In this document: positions 5,070 through 48,000 of the stretch, one piece after another | Position numbering within the stretch: the stretch's first letter is position 1 | Layout: the number at the start of each line of letters is the position of its first letter | NCBI RefSeq assembly: GCF_000003815.2 | Contig: NC_049980.1 | Location: 26,572,508-26,636,507 of the forward strand | Origin: Branchiostoma floridae | Taxonomy: Eukaryota > Chordata > Leptocardii > Amphioxiformes > Branchiostomatidae | DNA: 64,000 bases | Direction of reading: 5' to 3' | Made by a program: the position numbers and the translations under genes | Notes under the pieces: generated by a model | Databases searched by the model: none | The model's input: only the letters and a program-made list of their open reading frames with translations | Told to the model about the DNA's origin: nothing

Positions 5070-5180
5070 CTATTTCCACCCCCATCTGTCTGCATTGTTG
5101 GAATGTCTAGAGCCTGCAGAACCTGGGGATTGGCCGCCTAATCTACTTGGTCTTCCTCCTGTCTTGGCATCCTTCAAACC
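5070..5180 (-). CDS. SMN1: SMN last coding exon with a lineage-specific tail
   Basis: A TTTGACAG acceptor (5181-5188 on the plus strand) joins in phase to the YG-box exon. The exon reads GLKDAKTGGRPSRLGG and continues with Gly, Ser, Arg and Asn to WGWK and a TAG stop, 36 residues in all. The first residues align with the human exon 7 start (GFRQNQKEG). The remainder is longer than in human and has no recognisable motif. Confidence 0.8.
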   Translation of the reverse strand, partial: GLKDAKTGGRPSRLGGQSPGSAGSRHSNNADRWGWK

Positions 5181-8100
5181 CTGTCAAACAGATGAAAACA
5201 ACCACATTTGTGAATTTATTTATGTGTCCTACATGTATTACCCACAAATACAGTCCTCCGTTTCAATATATCAGCGATAAGAAGCTATAATATCAGCATA
5301 TAGAATTCATGGCAAATCCAAAATGGATGCAAAACATGTCAACTTAATAAATACACACTGTACCTATTTGTATCAGTCTACAATGACATGGAACACAAAG
5401 CACTGACACTGTATTGTGTTTACTAACCTGGTAGTACCCAGTATGGTAGCCACTCATGTACCAGGCCATTAACATACAGGCTAGCGAGTCCTCATCTTCC
5501 AGACCATCTGTAACAGCAGGAGGTGGTGGCAGCGGTGGCATCTTCAGAAACAAAGGCAAGATTGAATACATTGAATGATGATGGCATGCAAACACGCACA
5601 CTCCAAAACTTTCAATTCTCTTACATATCATCAAAATTACTAGCACATGTCCTAATTAACTGTCAGGTTTGAAGTCAACATATTGTCCTTTGTGTTGGTT
5701 ACAATGACAGAAAGAGCACTTGTAAAACACACTAAATGGCAAGTTACCAATTAAGATTCCTCAAGTTTTCCAGATGACGGAGGATCAAACCCTGCACGCC
5801 ATTAGGCATAGTGTGTGGGGCTGCATGATCTTTGTCCTCTCAGACAGGCATCAGACTTCAGCCTTGGGAAGCTGCACACATTAGCATCGGGGCTCAAATT
5901 TCTGCATGTGAAATTACCTAACAGACTTAGCCAGAAGAGTGGGGGTGATCCAGTGTACTTTGATGGAATAGTGAACCATGGCAAAGCTGAGTTGCACTTC
6001 CGCTACAGCTACTTAAGAAAAGTGTCACCTCTGTTGGAGTTGGCTGCTTTAACTTAACTTAAGTTTTGCAAGACACAAAAATATTGCTTACACATCTCAC
6101 ATTTAGGAGTGGGCATGCAATGAGCTCATGAAAGAAAGCTGGACTAAAAATTGTAATGGAAAGGCAGAAAGAATGTGATGGAAAATCAAGTACGAGTTGA
6201 AAGTACCAAGGGCACAGGTATTGTGACTCTACCTCCTTGCTCTGTCCCATTTTTACATACTATGTACATGTACTAGAAAGAAAAACTTCTAAATAGCTCT
6301 GATGTTTCATTCATCACTGAACTTTTCACAATAGCAATTTCAGAATGACATGAGAAGACTACGGCCAGAGGAAAAGATGAATACAGGATTTAATTCCCTT
6401 TGCTTGAGAAGGCAGAGGCCAACACTATAGCCTGTTTATTAAGTTCCTGTGTCCTAAGGACAAAATAAGATGGAAAGATGCTATCAGAGCAGTCAGTGGA
6501 AGCTATATGAAATGGCATAAATCTAACTTCATTGCAGTGTATTTCAAATGGGTTTGTCGATAGTTTGGACCTTGGCAGGCTGGAAAGTTTATTACACAGG
6601 AAAAAATTAACTTGTTCCTCCTAGAAATAGATGAGATAAAGGTTCATATCCAATGTAAACTTCAGGAAGTTGATACAAAAGATTGTCTAAAGTTTGAATT
6701 GCATTTATACATGTGCCAAGTAAGGCTGAGCTGAGGTAATACTACCAGTTGAAGTAGTTTGTGGTTTAGGATATATGACAATTGATGTGACCAAACCATA
6801 ACTTCCCAATTGGGCTCAATGTTGAAGTCTGTGCGTCAAATATCATCAAAAATCAGAGCCAATAATCAAGCCAAAATATACCGGAAACAAAGGAAAGTTG
6901 TGCAAGTGGGGGGTGGCTAAATACAGAAGCCATTTGTTCTGTTGCAGTACCAAAGAAACTGCTAGGCTTTGTTTGTTAACACCTCATAATGCACAATCCA
7001 ATTTCATAACAATCCAGGAATAGCTTCTTGAATTACTCTTTTAAACCAAAGATACAACCAAAAACAAACAAACTATGATAATAACCGAAAACATATTCCT
7101 CAATGGGCAATCAGGTGCGCAGGTCTTGTATTACACTGCTTTATTTGTTAAAACGATATTAAACCAACAATTGTTAATTTTGTTACAGCCACAATGTACA
7201 ATGCTGAATTGTACGTCTTGATAAGATTCAAAAGTATAAGACTTAGTATAGATAGCATTGCTGGGAAAATCCAGCAAAGAAAGCTCCAGGTTCTTTTGTA
7301 AGGCATGAACACCTTCTTTGTGATGTATAACCAAGGTAGAACAGACCTGCAGGGTCAAATGCATGTCGGTGGCAGCTGGGGACAACTGGTATTCCTTACA
7401 CACACAGACACAGGATTAAGCTATGATAAATAGGACCATCCATGCAGACCATCACTTCTGTACATCGGTGGGCGAGACAACTGATTGGGTCTAATTGTAC
7501 TGTCTCCTGGCATACAGATCACATGATCCCTACTGCTGACCTGTGCACAGGCCTGCCAGAAGGTCCGAGGAGCTGTGCTGGTCCCTGCATTAATCATCAC
7601 TAAAACTGACATGATCCTGATTGCCAGGCTGATGTGCAATGATGAAGTGGTACCCAAACTTCAAATACAGCACACGGACTTGTCACTCACCTATTTGTAT
7701 GTGCAGTAACTGTTATAGACCTCAGAAACATCTGCACAACTCCTAGTTTTACTTATACCACTAAACCTACATATGCAGGCTGTATTTCAAGCCCTGGTGT
7801 ACAAACAAGTGTGCCCAAAGTACAGGTTAAGCATGCATGGTTGTTATAACCAAAGTTACTGACCTGTACTGGCGGAGGTGGTAGTGGTTTCTCCTGTCTG
7901 CCTGGCCTTGGTGGCCACATCGGGAACCCTGGCATGTTCCCTGCCCAGGGAAATGGTGGGGGTGGGGGGACCTGCAAGGGAAGAGAAAATATGGAACAGA
8001 TATAAGAAACTGGGCCATGTTCAAATTTTCAACTTTGTAACCATAGTATTGTCAATCAAAACACAGCACATGTTTGTTGGGGGGATGACTTTGCCCTATA

Positions 8101-11100: not shown

Positions 11101-14100
11101 GCAATCTGGCAAGTTGTCTTGGCCTCAATCTAAAAGTGTCTGTGACACCATGCATCAAAAGTAGAAAACCTTGCTACTCAAATCAGTCTGGACAATGTCA
11201 TGTTTCATGAAAACCTGGCCTTTCTCCAGGAAATGACGTCAGACCAGATCTGCCTGTCTGAAATCGGCTGATCATTTTTCATACTACTTCATTTTTCATC
11301 TGTGGGGTCTATCTGTGCTATCAACTATGTACAGTACATGATAGATATACAGAAAAGACATCTTTGATACATGCGTTCTATGTGCAACTAGCTTTCTTTC
11401 ATGCTTTGCAGACTATGCGATTTGAAGACTATATTTAAAGTCACTAAAAGATCTGCCTAAATTAATTGAACTGATGAAAACCTGCTATAAATTGTAGACT
11501 GATGTAAAATAATCATTATACAATGAACAATTAATAACTGCAAGTTTTATTGACACAACAAATTAAAAAGTACAGTGACTTTTGTGTTTAAACTACAAAA
11601 TAGGGATAAGAAGTAAATCTCAAAATTTTACTGACTTAAAAATATAGGATAACAACTATCTTTATACAAAGAGGTGGGGGTAAACATTAGTGCCATTACC
11701 TTTTTCTAACTACAAAGCAATATTTCATGTACTTACCTGTAAGCATTATGAGTGCAGTCAGATCTAAAGATATAGTCTTAAAATCTACTTCTGGTATCAA
11801 GTATCTTGAAGTATCAAGTATCTTGTAGCAATTAGACATAGGAACTTGTATTGTACTGCTGGCGCATATTGTTAAAGATTGACTGATAGGCTAATAGTAC
11901 TGACCTGTGAGCCGTGCCCCTGTCCTGAGGGGGGTGGGGGGAGGTGCCTGGTATGTACTGACCTGTGAGCCGTGCCCCTGTCCTGAGGGGGGTGGGGGGA
12001 GGTGAGGCTGTGATGGAGGTGCCTGGTATGTACTGACCTGTGAGCCATGCCCCTGTCCTGAGGGGGGTGGGGGGAGGTGCCTGGTATGTACTGACCTGTG
12101 AGCCGTGCCCCTGTCCTGAGGGGGGTGGGGGGAGGTGAGGCTGTGATGGAGGTGCCTGGTGCGCGCCGTACTGCTTGTAATAATCCCTCCACCAGGACTC
12201 GTACCGGGATGGGCCGCCACCTGCGTCCGAGTTGTTATACTGACTCCATTTCTTAGACCCTGAACTACCCTAGAAGATGAATACGATTCAACAGTTTTAC
12301 AATTTACAGGAAAATGTTGTAGACAATCTAGTGTCTTAGACATCTATCTGTTAGCCATGCTAAAACTCATACATACTAGTAACTGTAACATATTAGTAGC
12401 TATTTGGTACTCCAGGATAAAAAGTAATTTTCTATAATTTCTAGGTAACATCATACATGTAAATGATTAAATTACTTCCTTCTGCATGCAAGCACATGTA
12501 ACATATAAAAAAAATGTTGGATTTCCTTTCTGAATGTTCATAATCTTTCATAATGTACACATTTACAAACTTTGCTGCACAAAACTGCATGTACCTCCCT
12601 GTTGAAAGAACTTACCTCAACAGCTGCATTTCCACTATAAGCATGTACAAATTCTCCCTCCTGGTCAACTGAGGACAGGTCCTTCAGGTTCTGTTCCTCC
12701 TCATTACCATAGTAGCTATATCTGAGAGACGACATCACAATCATCATTTCAAACAATGGGGCCTGAGCACTTTTTAGCCATATGCAGAGGATGATGGTAC
12801 TAGTACAGGTTTGGTAATTAATCAAGAGACTACTACATGCATAGCGTTGACCTGGGATGAATACTTTACCATCATTATAGGTATACCACAGGTATGGATA
12901 ATGACTTTTCTCCTCCTCCTTCTTTTTGTCTCCTATCATACTTCATAGTATCAAATCTTCAGATCAATTAATTGGTCGTTTTTTTTAGCCAAATGACCAT
13001 AGAATTTGATACAAATTTAGAGTGGGCCTGCAAATATTAAAATTTTTGGGGCATTCAAAATTGATTTTTTTTTTCATGTAATTTTTCTATATATTCTATC
13101 TGATTCTTTCTACAAAGGCTTGACAGGTGCATCCTACACAATCATATTGTAAAGAAGTTGCAAACCTCACAAGGCAAGTCTTCTCTGCGGTTGATGGAGA
13201 GGATCTCAGCTGGGTACCACAGCTGGTCTTCAGAGTACATGGCAATGCACTGGTCACCTGGCATCCACTACAACATACATAGTATTACAATTTACATATA
13301 CACAATCTTGTGAAATTTTACACTATCTTATCTCCTCGCAAAGAATTACATGAGATGTACAAAATGCAAGTGGCAGTTTACACTTGACGTATAACACACA
13401 GGTGATAGCCTGTGTTAACAAAATCTCTCACTGGCTGGGGTTAATGACCCCCTCCTAGGTGGCGGCAACTGTAGGGCCAAGCGTGATTTTAATCAGACTA
13501 AAATTCTCTCCACCTTCTAACTTTCATTTGTCTACTCTAAGTACATGTATGTAATATGATTATGTATACCACTGCAAAGGTCAGAAATGTGGCAGTAAGA
13601 GCAAGAAGTATCAGACACACAGGTCATAGGGTCAATGGGAGAGGCTACTAAATTAACAGAGAGATGTTTTTTTGTGGTCTGTCTGACAGATGTTTCTATG
13701 TGTTTTACATTTATATTGTTTTTCACAAATAAAACATTCACAGTTAAGGCATTACTGAGTGACAGGAAGTGATCAAAACCTTATTTGCATAATCAATAAA
13801 CTACAAAATATACAATATGACAAACTCTAAATATTTCACAGAGGTGTGAGATCTTTGAACTCTACTTGTTGTTCCACCATCCATGTGTCCTCCCCATACT
13901 GGAGATCTATAGCCAGGATGCTGCTGTTTCAGTATACTATTACTTTTCCTCACGGCAACTACACAACTCATCTGTATTATTTCATCCCTCCTATAGGACA
14001 GGATCAAGCAGGCAAAACCTTGATAAATAGAATTGGTCTTGTGCATAAACCTCTCCACCACACTGGAGGCCATTCCCTCATACTGCTAATATGACTGCAT

Positions 14101-17100
14101 ATATTACATGATGTAGCTTACATGGTTGATTTTTTTTAAACTGACAAAAATTGATGTGTGCATGGAAATCATCCAGATAAATAATCAATAAAATCAACAT
14201 GGCCTATAATGAGATGATTATTTGGAAAATGTATGAGGTTTTGGAGCTCTAGTTCTGACATGCATATTTCAGTGCCCCAAAATAAAACTTTTCCTTGTTC
14301 ATTCTTTAATTTTATTGAAGAGACAATATATACATGTACAAGGCAATCCATCTCTGTACATAAACCTGTCACCAACTTATCTCCACAACTACAATTTCTC
14401 TCTGCACAGCTGCAGCTAATTACTGTTCCTCTAACACTAAAAGCATGGCCAAGGACAATACTGCCCAATTATAGGAAAAGGCTGTTCGCTTTCGATTACT
14501 GTCATCTTTGACGGAACCTTTTGGGAGAAATGAGCAACTTTATGGCTTGAAATAATGGTAGAAAGCATTGAATGAAATTTCCCACAGGCATAACAAAATG
14601 TGTGTCTTTGTAGTACTTTGCCTGATGTAATTCTTTTAACCATGCATGGTCTTTTACAGATCACAGTTGAGGGCAGCAAATTTTTCAAATGTAATCATGT
14701 CACATTACATTGGAAAGTACAGTTGCGCTGGAGTTATAATAATAATCATCTCGAGTATTTTGCCAGCCAGTAGGTACCCAATATGTTGAGTAATGAGGCT
14801 GTTTAACATGGTCGAGGCACCTCTTCAAGCACAGGACCCCCGTTTTACGTCCCTCCCGGAAGACGATTTCGTGGAATGCTTTGTGAGGCTACAGCAATCC
14901 GGTCGTATTTGGGTGGTCCCCCATCCAAGAACTGTACAAACCGTGCGCTGCTTAACTTCCGAGATCGAGGGATCGGGTGTACCAATGCACAACGTGGCCA
15001 TAGAATTTTATCATTGGTTATGCTTCTTATGCAAAACTAAGCCTTAATTTGCATCTGATTATGTGCATCTTTACTCTTATTAAGCTGAACGACATGAGCT
15101 AACATGACATTTACCAAAAACAATATCTACATACACTAAGCTTAAACACACCCAGTAGTAGAAGTCGTTTGGCAGTTAACAGCTTTATGTAATAAAAGCT
15201 GTAAATCATACACAAATTCTTGTATTAAGTGTAATACATACCTTATGAATTCCTCTGGACTTTCCCTTCTTTTTTGTCTTTTTCCTCACCATGGATGAAC
15301 TTGAGACTTCAGCTTCTACTGCAGGTTTATTATCAGTTTTGTTATTTGTCACAGTGTTTTTGTCGTTGCTTCCCTCTGTTTTGCTGTCTATGTCTTCTGA
15401 CTTGTCGTCAGTTTCTTCCGTCTTGATGTCTGTTTCATTTGTGATGCTGTCGCTTTCTTTGTCCTTTGGGTCATCTATCTCTTCATCATTTTCCAGAGCT
15501 ATCTGTAGAAATATGAAATATCAATTTTCTCAACTACTGGCACATTTTGCATCGAAACATGTGTTTTCTCAGGTGTGTATGACATAAATAAAATACAACA
15601 CGGTGTATTCCGCATCACCCTTGGTCCCAGCCCTCCCGCAGTCGGACCTTCCTTCGGCCTTCAAGTGATCTGACCCGCAGTCGGGCTGGTACCTCGGGTG
15701 ATACGGAACACACAGTGGTGTATTATATATATACACTTTTGTGCACACCAAATCTTGTGTGGGAGCACCTATAATGGCAATGTGTAGGGTGATACATAAG
15801 GATGCAATTGCAGTATTGCACAATATCATTCTTGACATTAAGCGTAAAAAAATGTTTGTTACATTACTTGTAACGTGAAACTTTTGAAGTTAGCTATAGC
15901 ATTTCATACACAAACTATTAGAGCCCAACATGCAATATCCATAGAAACATGCAATATCCATTCAAACGTTAAATGTCTGAGACACTGATGCAGCTCTGTC
16001 CTTGGTGCTGATTTAATAATCCCATTCCTGTCCTTGGTGCTGAATGGGCAATACCATTTCTTCCTAATCAAAACTGCACTACTTAGTAAATTATCCAGTG
16101 AAACTAAAGCCATATTGATTTGAATACAATACAGATCAGTGTGTGCATCAATTTTCGGCTGTTTTCAGAAGGACAAAAAGTTCTAAATCATATGTAAATC
16201 ATACAAAACAGCTGCAAAATGAGTACTAGTAGGTCACCAAAAATATCGGAAAACGTATACTTATGTCATAGAATGCCAAAGTAAATTACAAAGTTATAAG
16301 ATTGGTTTATTACTTCAGCCAGTGAACAATAAAATACATCGCAGCTACTTAGAAGATGCTGAATTGCACATTTTATAAATTGTACTTCATGCATGTGTAA
16401 AATCTATGAAAATATACAGTTACAAGAAGTCTTATTATAGGAATAAAGCAAAAAGAAACGGGGCAGCTTGTTATACAACGTAGAGAAGAAGACGTTGACG
16501 GTGGATTTAGAGAAATGGGAGATCTTTTCAGGTACAAGTTGAGAATGAAGAGGAGAAAAAAGAACAAAACTTAGAGAAATCTAATGTGTGGTTTACCACA
16601 CTCTATAAATGTGTTCCGTCATGTGTTGAATTTGTTAAACCTTTCTGACCACCTAGATGTCAGGAAGGCCACTTTCGTAGCCAAACTTTTTTATTTGCAT
16701 GCACATTTGCCAGACCAATAAGGAGCTTCCACCGAAGACTTTTCTGTGGAGAAGCAATTAGCGGGAGCGACTGGAACATTATAGAAAGGAAACCAGGCTA
16801 CATGTATATAAGCCCTTTCACAGAGGTTAGAACACAGGTGCAGCGACAGGAATTCTAGGTAATATGTCAAAGGGTAAGGCCTCCAAATTGAAAACAAATC
16901 ATGTCTGGACTTATGCAAATCTAAACAATGGCCGAGACAAGGACTATTTACAATTTGGGGGCCTTACCCTTTGAAATATTACCTAGAATTCTTGTCGCCA
17001 CATATGCTTCTGACCTCTGTGAAAGGGCTTAAATCAATGTTAATCTCAAAGCGACCAGACAGCTAACCTTCATAGCGTGTACAGCCTTGTCGTATGCCTG

Positions 17101-45000: not shown

Positions 45001-48000
45001 CACATGAATAGCTAAGACACTGGACGGTTCTTCATAGTTATACTGCTAATTTGCTCATGCAGTTCTAAAATTGATTGGTTCATGGCAGTTATAAGCACTG
45101 ATTGGTTCCTGACAGTAGAAAAAGACATGAAAAGAAGACACCAGCAAGAGCAATTTTCATCCTATCGGGAAAACATAATTATTGTGAGCTCCTACTGCTA
45201 GTTTGTTAGCTTGTCTGTTCGATAAATCACTTCCCATTACACTAGCCACTTCATGAACAAAGGCAAAAGTAAGATCCCGTTGATTTTATTCAAAAAAATA
45301 TGTTCCTACATCACCACCAGTATGGCAGCATAAATGTACAGAACTCACAACTTAATGTATGAAAAATGTTTGAGAATACATTTGAGGACATGTTACAGAA
45401 AGGATCCACTTTTATCTATTACATATTCATTACATTGTCATTATTATCATCGGTCACAGTTTCCTGCTATCACAACATAATCAGTAAAGGATCATTAAAA
45501 AAGTCACTGGCACTCAACTGCCAGCAATTCAATACAGTTTATCTCTGCCAACTTGAATGGCTTGTATGCCGACTGTTTATTTGACCAAGTCTGGCTGCAG
45601 GTTCCGAACCAATGCAGCACAGACCTTGATAATGTCATCTACTGCTGACATGAGTGTTATGGGAAATGTACCCTCCAGGATTTTGAAGTCCTTCAGCCGA
45701 TTGTTAGCACGCTCTACGCGGATCCTCAAGTTTGCAACAGTTTTTGTTTTCTTTACTTTGTCTCTTGTCATGTGTCGCCTCCCCTATGCTGCTGGTGGTA
45801 TTTATAGTGTTGCATTCAGCAGCATCAGGTCCTCCTGGATTGGAAATCCCCTATCTGCCATTATTTTTATAACGTCATTTGGATCAACCAAATCTAAAAA
45901 GCCACAGTCCCAGGTAAGGAACACATCAGAGGCTCTTCTGCCATAGGTCTTTGAAAGAAAGGAGATGTGCCCATTTGGTGTGATCCCTACAAACGGCTTT
46001 AAAGTATGTGTTTTTATAGTCATACCATGTGGAGGCTTGTAAGTCTAAAGATCTAGGTCTCTCAATAAATATTTCTGTACAATCAATTATGCATCTTATT
46101 CTACTACATTGTTTCTTGAACTGTGGTGGCAAGGTCTTGGAAATTGCAGCTCTACTTGGCCATACTATCAGTGGTTGTAGTGTAACTGACAGGAAGCAAA
46201 CCCAAGTGTTGGCAATCTGTGAGCAAGAACAGTTTTGTCCGACCATGGGTCTTTCTTGTCAGTGGGAAATGCATAGCTTGAAAGGATGGGGACAGTTGCA
46301 TCATCAAAATCCTTTTTTGTTCCATGTTTTTATTTGGACATGTCCCTGACTTCCATTTTTTAAAGTTGATACAAGGAGGTTGAAACCGCCTTGGTTGATA
46401 TGTTCCATTACCGCAGCCGACCACTGCACACAGCCTCATGTTGAACTCCGGCAGCTTAAAAAAAAGGAAGAAACATTAAAGCAAATATCAACACTTAAAC
46501 AAAAAATACAGCTTTAAAGCACAATACACTTCAATGCACATTCTACATGCACCCCTCCCCACCGCCACGTTTGCATAACTTGCAGCGACCTTGCTTGCAC
46601 ATTTATTAGTACAATTTTTCAACCTAAAGCGCCGTTAATACTAATACGGACATCCAAGCCATTTACTGCGATTATTAATGTACTCGCTGTTGGTTCTTTT
46701 TTTATCTTTCTAATCGAAGTGTTGGTCACAGTACGAAAGCTCCTCAGTCAGTGCACAATACACTTCAATGCACATTCTACATGCACCCCTCCCCACCGCC
46801 ACGTTTGCATAACTTGCAGCGACCTTGCTTGCACATTTATTAGTACAATTTTTCAACCTAAAGCGCCGTTAATACTAATACGGACATCCAAGCCATTTAC
46901 TGCGATTATTAATGTACTCGCTGTTGGTTCTTTTTTTTATCTTTCTAATCGAAGTGTTGGTCACAGTACGAAAGCTCCTCAGTCAGTGCAAGCGGGGTCA
47001 TGTCCGGACACGAGAGATCACGAGACAATGACCATATCGGCTTTCATTATTGTGAAGACACAAGGTCGTGCATTTTAGCTAACATTTTTACGGTTTATAA
47101 CATACGTAGGTTAAAATTCCCTAACTATGTCACACTGGTAACCTTTACAGACAAAAACCTGGTTGTAGTGAGAAGGGACAGAAATTCTAGAAGTAAGCGG
47201 CAAAGATAGATGGCATCGTGCATGGGGGAGGGTTGCATGCGTTATCACTAACTATGGTAACACTTGCTTGGATACCGTCAAAAAACGTACCGTTAATTCC
47301 TCTGAAGCGAAACTGAACACGGTGTTTCAGGTACACAAGGTTCAGGACATTGTTGGAACATCAGATCCAGGCGGGTAGCTGCCGTTAACGCCGTGTAGAC
47401 GCTAAAAATCTCGACACTTGAACATTGAACCTGGACACACGCTGCCCTGTCGAACGCGACTTGTTTATCTCACTTTTTTCGTTGCTAAGGAAATTCCGCG
47501 CATGCGTACTGGTAAATGCAAATAGGCTTATCACGATGGTCCAAAAGGGCATGAAAAATCCCCACTTGTGGGACATGAATATTGATGATAATTAGATGTC
47601 AATCACTGTTTTCTCCATTGGAAACTGTCCGTGATTGGTTGAAAATTAAAAAGGCGGGCCGTAGTAATGTTTATGTTACGATATCTCCCCTGTGCCAACG
47701 TCGCTATTCATATGCGTTACCTGCCGCTGGTTTCAATTGAATTACATTAGCACGTTTTAACAATACCAATTTGTTGCCTGACTCAAAACCAACAGGATTT
47801 TCAGTATAGCTTTGTCCATCTTGTGGTCAAAATACCCAAAGATTTTCCATCATCAAAAAAGAAAAATATCAGTCAGCTCCCCGCTGGTGAAGTTGGACGA
47901 TTTACTAGTGCTGGGTTTCGACGGCAAAAGATTCAATATGGCGCTAGTAGTAGTAAAATATTCCAAACTGAACGTATTTGTGATATAAACAGCTTTACCG

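Follow-up and report, generated by a model that had tools for sequence, protein, structure and literature searches.

The end of a proline-rich exon in the amphioxus (Branchiostoma floridae) SMN gene is followed by an array in which the splice donor of this exon occurs four times in identical form. We consider it likely that a recent tandem duplication across the exon–intron boundary produced this array, i.e., a "mirage" minisatellite that is probably polymorphic and essentially silent in the mRNA. The window, the whole stretch of DNA analyzed, comprises 64,000 nucleotides at C2:26572508–26636507, and all positions are counted from its first letter.

Anatomy of the array

The four donors all read CACAG|GTCAGTAC on the minus strand, with the first bases of GT at 12095, 12037, 11962, and 11904, the positions proposed in an earlier note on this DNA. 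They are spaced 58, 75, and 58 bp apart, and their sequences are identical across 13 bases. Tandem Repeats Finder described minus-strand positions 12160–11897 as a 133-bp period with 2.0 copies and 99% matches. The earlier note had placed the repeat at 11898..12163; the array itself was recovered, but its 5′ edge lies at 12160, and positions 12161–12163 are not repeated. The array is 264 bp long and runs from A1, the 65-nt exon end, through B1 (58 bp) and A2 (75 bp) to B2 (58 bp) (Table 1). Units B1, A2, and B2 each start with GTCAGTAC and end with CACAG. Under a dinucleotide model, 0.28 occurrences of CAGGTCAGT were expected on the minus strand of the window, against five observed, four of which lie inside the array; the plus strand contained two, against 0.30 expected.

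Table 1. Positions of the array units, splice sites, and modelled SMN exons in the window
Feature	Position	Strand	Remark
SMN Tudor exon, first part	13166..13267	-	phmmer match with SMN Tudor structures (1mhn, E 1.4e-5)
SMN Tudor exon, second part	12616..12762	-	uncertain start: 12762 preserves the frame, whereas 12721 agrees with the domain but shifts the frame
SMN proline-rich exon E5 (modelled), 174 nt	12096..12269	-	ends at donor 1; frame GSSGSKKWSQ...GQGHGSQ
Unit A1, exonic, 65 nt	12096..12160	-	presumed template of the array; identical to the matching part of A2
Unit B1, 58 bp	12038..12095	-	donor 1 to the base preceding donor 2; holds the sole substitution
Candidate 20-nt micro-exon GACAGGGGCATGGCTCACAG	12038..12057	-	CTCAG to donor 2; from sequence only
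Unit A2, 75 bp	11963..12037	-	donor 2 to the base preceding donor 3; extra 17 bp with YTNAY (CTCAC)
Similar candidate 20-nt micro-exon copies	11963-11982 and 11905-11924	-	likewise from sequence only
Unit B2, 58 bp	11905..11962	-	donor 3 to the base preceding donor 4
Donor 4	11897..11904	-	GTCAGTAC as the final repeated bases, then unrepeated intron
Intronic donor ACAG|GTAAGT	11731..11740	-	GT at 11736; lies beyond the array, 168 bp deeper in the intron
Next SMN exon, proline-rich	7864..7971	-	donor likewise CAG|GTCAGT
SMN YG-box exon	5428..5541	-	PF20635 match
Last coding SMN exon found	5070..5180	-	TAG end

With the boundary taken from the gene model, the repeated unit consists of 65 nt of exon end joined to 8 nt of intron. 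The joint between units contains two bases (AT) absent from both the exon entry and the intron exit. Removal of 17 bp from A2 yields B2 exactly; this deletion can be placed at eight positions and has CACCTCC on both flanks, a pattern that slippage between direct repeats typically leaves. Within the repeated stretch, a single C–T difference separates the two 133-bp copies, indicating that the last duplication was recent or that the copies were homogenized. We propose that a segment made up of 65 nt of exon end and 8 nt of intron was first duplicated and that two filler bases connected the copies, which would give 75-bp units. One unit would then have lost the 17 bp between the two CACCTCC repeats, giving the 58-bp unit, and the resulting 133-bp pair would have been duplicated once more. 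The single C–T difference would have arisen last.

A dispersed repeat or mobile element was rejected as the origin of the array, as a 401-bp query found one place in the 513-Mb genome. Strict G-quadruplexes driving slippage were likewise rejected; the G3 pattern occurred on neither strand, and G2 patterns numbered four per strand.

Another explanation is an inflated copy number or the joining of haplotypes during assembly. Published amphioxus sequences disagree at mirages: two versions of PGBD5 show 2 or 7 and 3 or 6 copies (PMC3902484), and the draft seems to contain a misassembled haplotype of BflGb6 (PMC3087553). However, the SMN array is short, at 264 bp, and contains an internal variant, two unit types, and filler-base joints, and the PGBD5 repeat sequence was confirmed by reexamined Sanger and new Illumina data (PMC3902484). 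We therefore regard an assembly artefact as extremely improbable.

SMN gene and exon model

The gene is SMN, as the earlier note had recognized. The YG box matched PF20635 with 54.8 bits (cut-off 21.3; E 7.8e-15) on the ORF at 5344–5655. The joined modelled protein matched SMN Tudor and YG-box structures and scored 31.9 bits against PF06003 (cut-off 22.7; E 1.4e-7); the best PF06003 stretch, residues 1–27, corresponds to positions 3–29 of 58, i.e., the first half of the profile only. The second Tudor exon alone reached 14.7 bits, below the cut-off. A genome-wide search for the YG box found one place in the 513-Mb genome; SMN is apparently single copy, and a paralogue as the source of the array copies was rejected on the basis of this search.

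The SMN exons constitute a sequence-based model that runs from 15502 down to 5070, with the first exon of the gene outside the model. They encode, in order, an acidic/lysine-rich segment, the Tudor domain (two exons), proline-rich sequence (two exons), the YG box, and the last coding part. Exon E5, which the earlier note had called exon 6 and at the end of which the array lies, has the acceptor TTCTAG, the donor CAG|GTCAGT, and a length divisible by three. According to the modelled exon ends, it is flanked by introns of 346 nt upstream and 4124 nt downstream. The next exon starts at 7971, in agreement with the acceptor ending at 7972 that had been proposed earlier.

The Tudor domain is interrupted by an intron, the obvious acceptor of which at 12721 (minus strand) breaks the frame. 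The frame-keeping acceptor at 12762 (minus strand) inserts 14 odd residues into the domain, and the donor of this intron, GAG|GTTTGC at 13166 (minus strand), was weak when scored with a weight matrix. This split may represent a gene-model fault, an indel, or unusual splicing. Inside a modelled SMN intron, positions 14886–15005 (minus strand) are 5S rRNA-like, with a full-length RF00001 match of 44.2 bits (gathering 38); such a low score points to a repeat derived from 5S or to a 5S copy that has decayed.

Donor choice and its predicted consequences

We computed that donors 2, 3, and 4 would add 58, 133, and 191 nt, respectively, none of which is a multiple of three. In the gene model, use of donor 1 keeps the product in frame and retains the YG box, and donors 2–4 shift the frame ahead of the YG box, each leading to a stop within the YG-box exon. 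The earlier note had anticipated these additions and frame shifts. It had also held that each unit encodes more proline-rich sequence, which is correct in part, but each 58-bp unit shifts the frame and later units are read in other frames. Donors 2 and 3 lead to one common shifted downstream frame in the model and donor 4 to another; the last junction found is 64, 64, and 53 nt downstream of the respective stops. These distances are at the edge of the usual decay rule of approximately 50–55 nt. The splicing issue known for human SMN concerns a different exon.

With a human weight matrix, the array donors scored equal to one another and to the corresponding site of the next exon. On the same matrix, the intronic donor at 11736 outscored all other GT sites of the 4124-nt intron, which number 244 with it, and the four array copies came next. 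According to the gene model, use of the donor at 11736 would give a 533-nt exon containing a stop. It reads CTTACAG|GTAAGTACAT on the minus strand, a consensus donor directly after an acceptor-like CTTACAG, and resembles a recursive splice site. By eye, its context also looks like the array joint CTCACAG|GTCAGTACAT.

Mean unpaired probabilities were 0.41–0.43 for donor 1, 0.40 for donor 2, 0.25–0.26 for donor 3, and 0.40–0.41 for donor 4. In these predictions, RNA structure neither disfavours donor 1 nor singles it out. An RNA structure hiding donors 2–4 was rejected; donor 3 was somewhat more paired, and donors 2 and 4 were similar to donor 1. With no difference in sequence and a common exon context, choice among the donors must depend largely on position.

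U1 could bind all four identical donors. We infer recognition across the exon itself, given the length of the introns on either side; donor 1, the nearest to the upstream acceptor, would normally be used, and the three extra units would be removed as intron. Where donors are of near-equal strength and the flanking introns are long, the upstream 5′ site is reported to be favored, also in minigenes with identical donors (PMC9225289). This preference points to donor 1, which is the in-frame donor here. It is statistical, derives from human data, and applies to 60% of near-equal events (PMC9225289). When the equal-strength filter is dropped, the downstream donor is favored in approximately 60% of events, and in 86% it is the stronger donor that dominates; classical in vitro work cited in the same source favors the downstream donor as well (PMC9225289). 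The stronger donor at 11736 counts against a silent array, as does the application of human splicing rules to another chordate. If donors 2–4 or the 20-nt micro-exons were used occasionally, the frame would shift, and the products of donors 2–4 would lack the YG box.

Alternatively, donors 2–4 may be used appreciably, yielding frameshifted products or decay, and the number of repeats may tune the SMN dose. Loss of SMN would be costly, so selection should oppose heavy reliance on the later donors, which counts against such a working splice-site array. In its favor are the identity of the four donors over 13 bases, the open state of all three minus-strand frames through the array, and the location of the donor 2–4 stops in the YG-box exon at the distances given above. 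In addition, boundary repeats in human segmental duplications can change splicing (PMC2812944). However, mirages have been reported without splicing interference where examined (PMC3087553, PMC3902484), and the exon-definition preference favors donor 1 (PMC9225289). We consider appreciable use of the later donors improbable.

Possible introns within the array

Each unit contains features that the earlier note did not mention, i.e., an acceptor-like half and the symmetry of AG|GT, in addition to the 17-bp relation between the units and the donor at 11736. AGGT is duplicated at both ends of the segment, and every unit ends in AG|GT. Whole-unit introns of 58, 75, 133, or 191 nt are possible at these joints, and their removal would leave the mRNA unchanged; if it occurs occasionally, it would give the same mRNA as donor 1. 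In each unit, a pyrimidine tract ending in CTCAG is found 20 nt ahead of the next donor. CTCAC, a YTNAY sequence, stands shortly before the pyrimidine tract in the long unit type only, and another CTCAC is found at the end of every unit.

These signals raise the question of whether the AG|GT joints or CTCAG acceptors already form a new intron inside the array, which would make it an intermediate of intron gain by tandem duplication. Some spacings in the array (38 nt) are probably too short for an intron, which counts against this reading. The AG|GT end of all units, the range of possible intron lengths, and the long unit with CTCAC and a pyrimidine tract before CTCAG are consistent with it. 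The tandem-duplication model itself has been described (PMC3443670), the potato RdRp case crosses an intron–exon boundary (PMC4974935), and intron gain has been proposed for globin mirages (PMC3087553). The SMN array resembles these cases in having a tandem segment with AG|GT and a pyrimidine tract (PMC3443670, PMC4974935). However, it lies at the edge of an existing intron, and the copied AG|GT is the donor of that old intron; therefore, no new intron in the mRNA is expected, and whole-unit removal creates no new intron position. We consider intron gain very unlikely.

Relation to known amphioxus mirages

Tandem repeats spanning exon–intron boundaries are a described class in amphioxus, termed mirages (PMC3087553, PMC3902484). 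Published examples include Adh3 (10–72 bp), BflGb9 (157 bp), and TnC and PGBD5 (60 and 108 bp) (PMC3087553, PMC3902484). In BflGb6, units of 150–160 bp cover the last part of intron B12.2 together with the beginning of exon 2, with 6 and 3 units in two haplotypes (PMC3087553). Adh3 data and globin RT-PCR suggest that regular splicing is undisturbed by mirages (PMC3087553); Adh and TnC are cited to the same effect, and the claim for PGBD5 splicing rests on prediction (PMC3902484). It has also been stated that the AG/GT signals of mirages could serve as cryptic sites (PMC3087553).

The SMN array is similar to these mirages. According to the gene model, its unit spans an exon–intron boundary; its 58- and 75-bp units fall within the published range of 10–160 bp, and the copies are few. 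All four copies carry AG/GT signals, as do many, although not all, of the copies in the cases described in the sources cited above. It differs from the published mirages in its gene, SMN, and in the alternation of 58- and 75-bp units within a compound 133-bp repeat. Human internal tandem repeats, which are variable, can likewise lie at an exon–intron boundary; unlike those described in PMC2812944, which occur in segmental duplications and can alter splicing, the SMN array belongs to a gene whose YG box was found at one place. No earlier report of a mirage in SMN was found among the top-ranked papers of the literature searched, in which most subscription journals are absent.

If a 264-bp array fell at random within the 10.4-kb SMN stretch, it would lie over one of the six donors approximately 15% of the time. 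Therefore, one boundary-spanning array alone is not statistically striking, and it is the published recurrence that makes the class.

We also looked at other arrays in the same assembly. At a globin exon on contig C18 (L030), a 158-bp × 4.2 array with 91% matches occupies 954–1601, and the exon match occupies 1501–1713; the array begins before the exon match and terminates within it. We take it as probably identical with the published BflGb6 mirage, at a copy number other than the 6 and 3 units reported. By eye, it contains four pyrimidine-rich stretches each ending AG|GTTACTCCGTGACTACCC, of which an ungapped 80-nt scan found two, and an AG|GTTACT acceptor in each of four copies. A boundary array of this kind was present at one of nine globin loci (approximately 3.2 kb each). 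Three other globin loci had short arrays only, with a 20–25-bp period and outside the exon match, and the 157-bp duplicate of BflGb9 was not recognized among the nine loci. A GFP-family search, which reads exon by exon, gave 0 matches in this assembly, although 16 such genes are reported for amphioxus; its control likewise matched in 0 of 14 genomes.

A tandem-array survey of 264 kb, i.e., 20 stretches of 10 kb from contigs C1–C4 and the window (period 30–500, at least 1.8 copies, at least 85% matches), yielded nine arrays, too few for a statement on enrichment. A donor-like motif in more than one copy was found in two of the nine, the SMN array and L011:9186-10000. The latter, 194 bp × 4.2 with 99% matches, reaches the end of its stretch, and on the minus strand its copies carry CCCCCAG|GTGAGT; it is a possible further mirage, judging from its letters. 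Elsewhere in the window, 46519–46990 holds a 234-bp × 2 tandem duplication (99%) near DDE_Tnp_4 transposase fragments at 45802–46258.

Significance

With the boundary-spanning duplication in SMN, the few genes reported to bear mirage repeats now include one that serves to assemble the splicing machinery itself. The array also provides a natural test of the choice among identical donors that share their exon context, in which exon-definition proximity predicts the first donor and intron proximity predicts the last. Repeat-length alleles, if they exist, would permit a test of donor choice within one population. A further idea is that a single chordate SMN carries allele-variable identical 5′ splice sites, the number of which sets the share of mRNA without the YG box; we regard this as a long shot. 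If it were true, a dose-sensing loop would be possible because SMN itself serves spliceosome assembly: less SMN would give fewer snRNPs, which in turn would alter donor choice.
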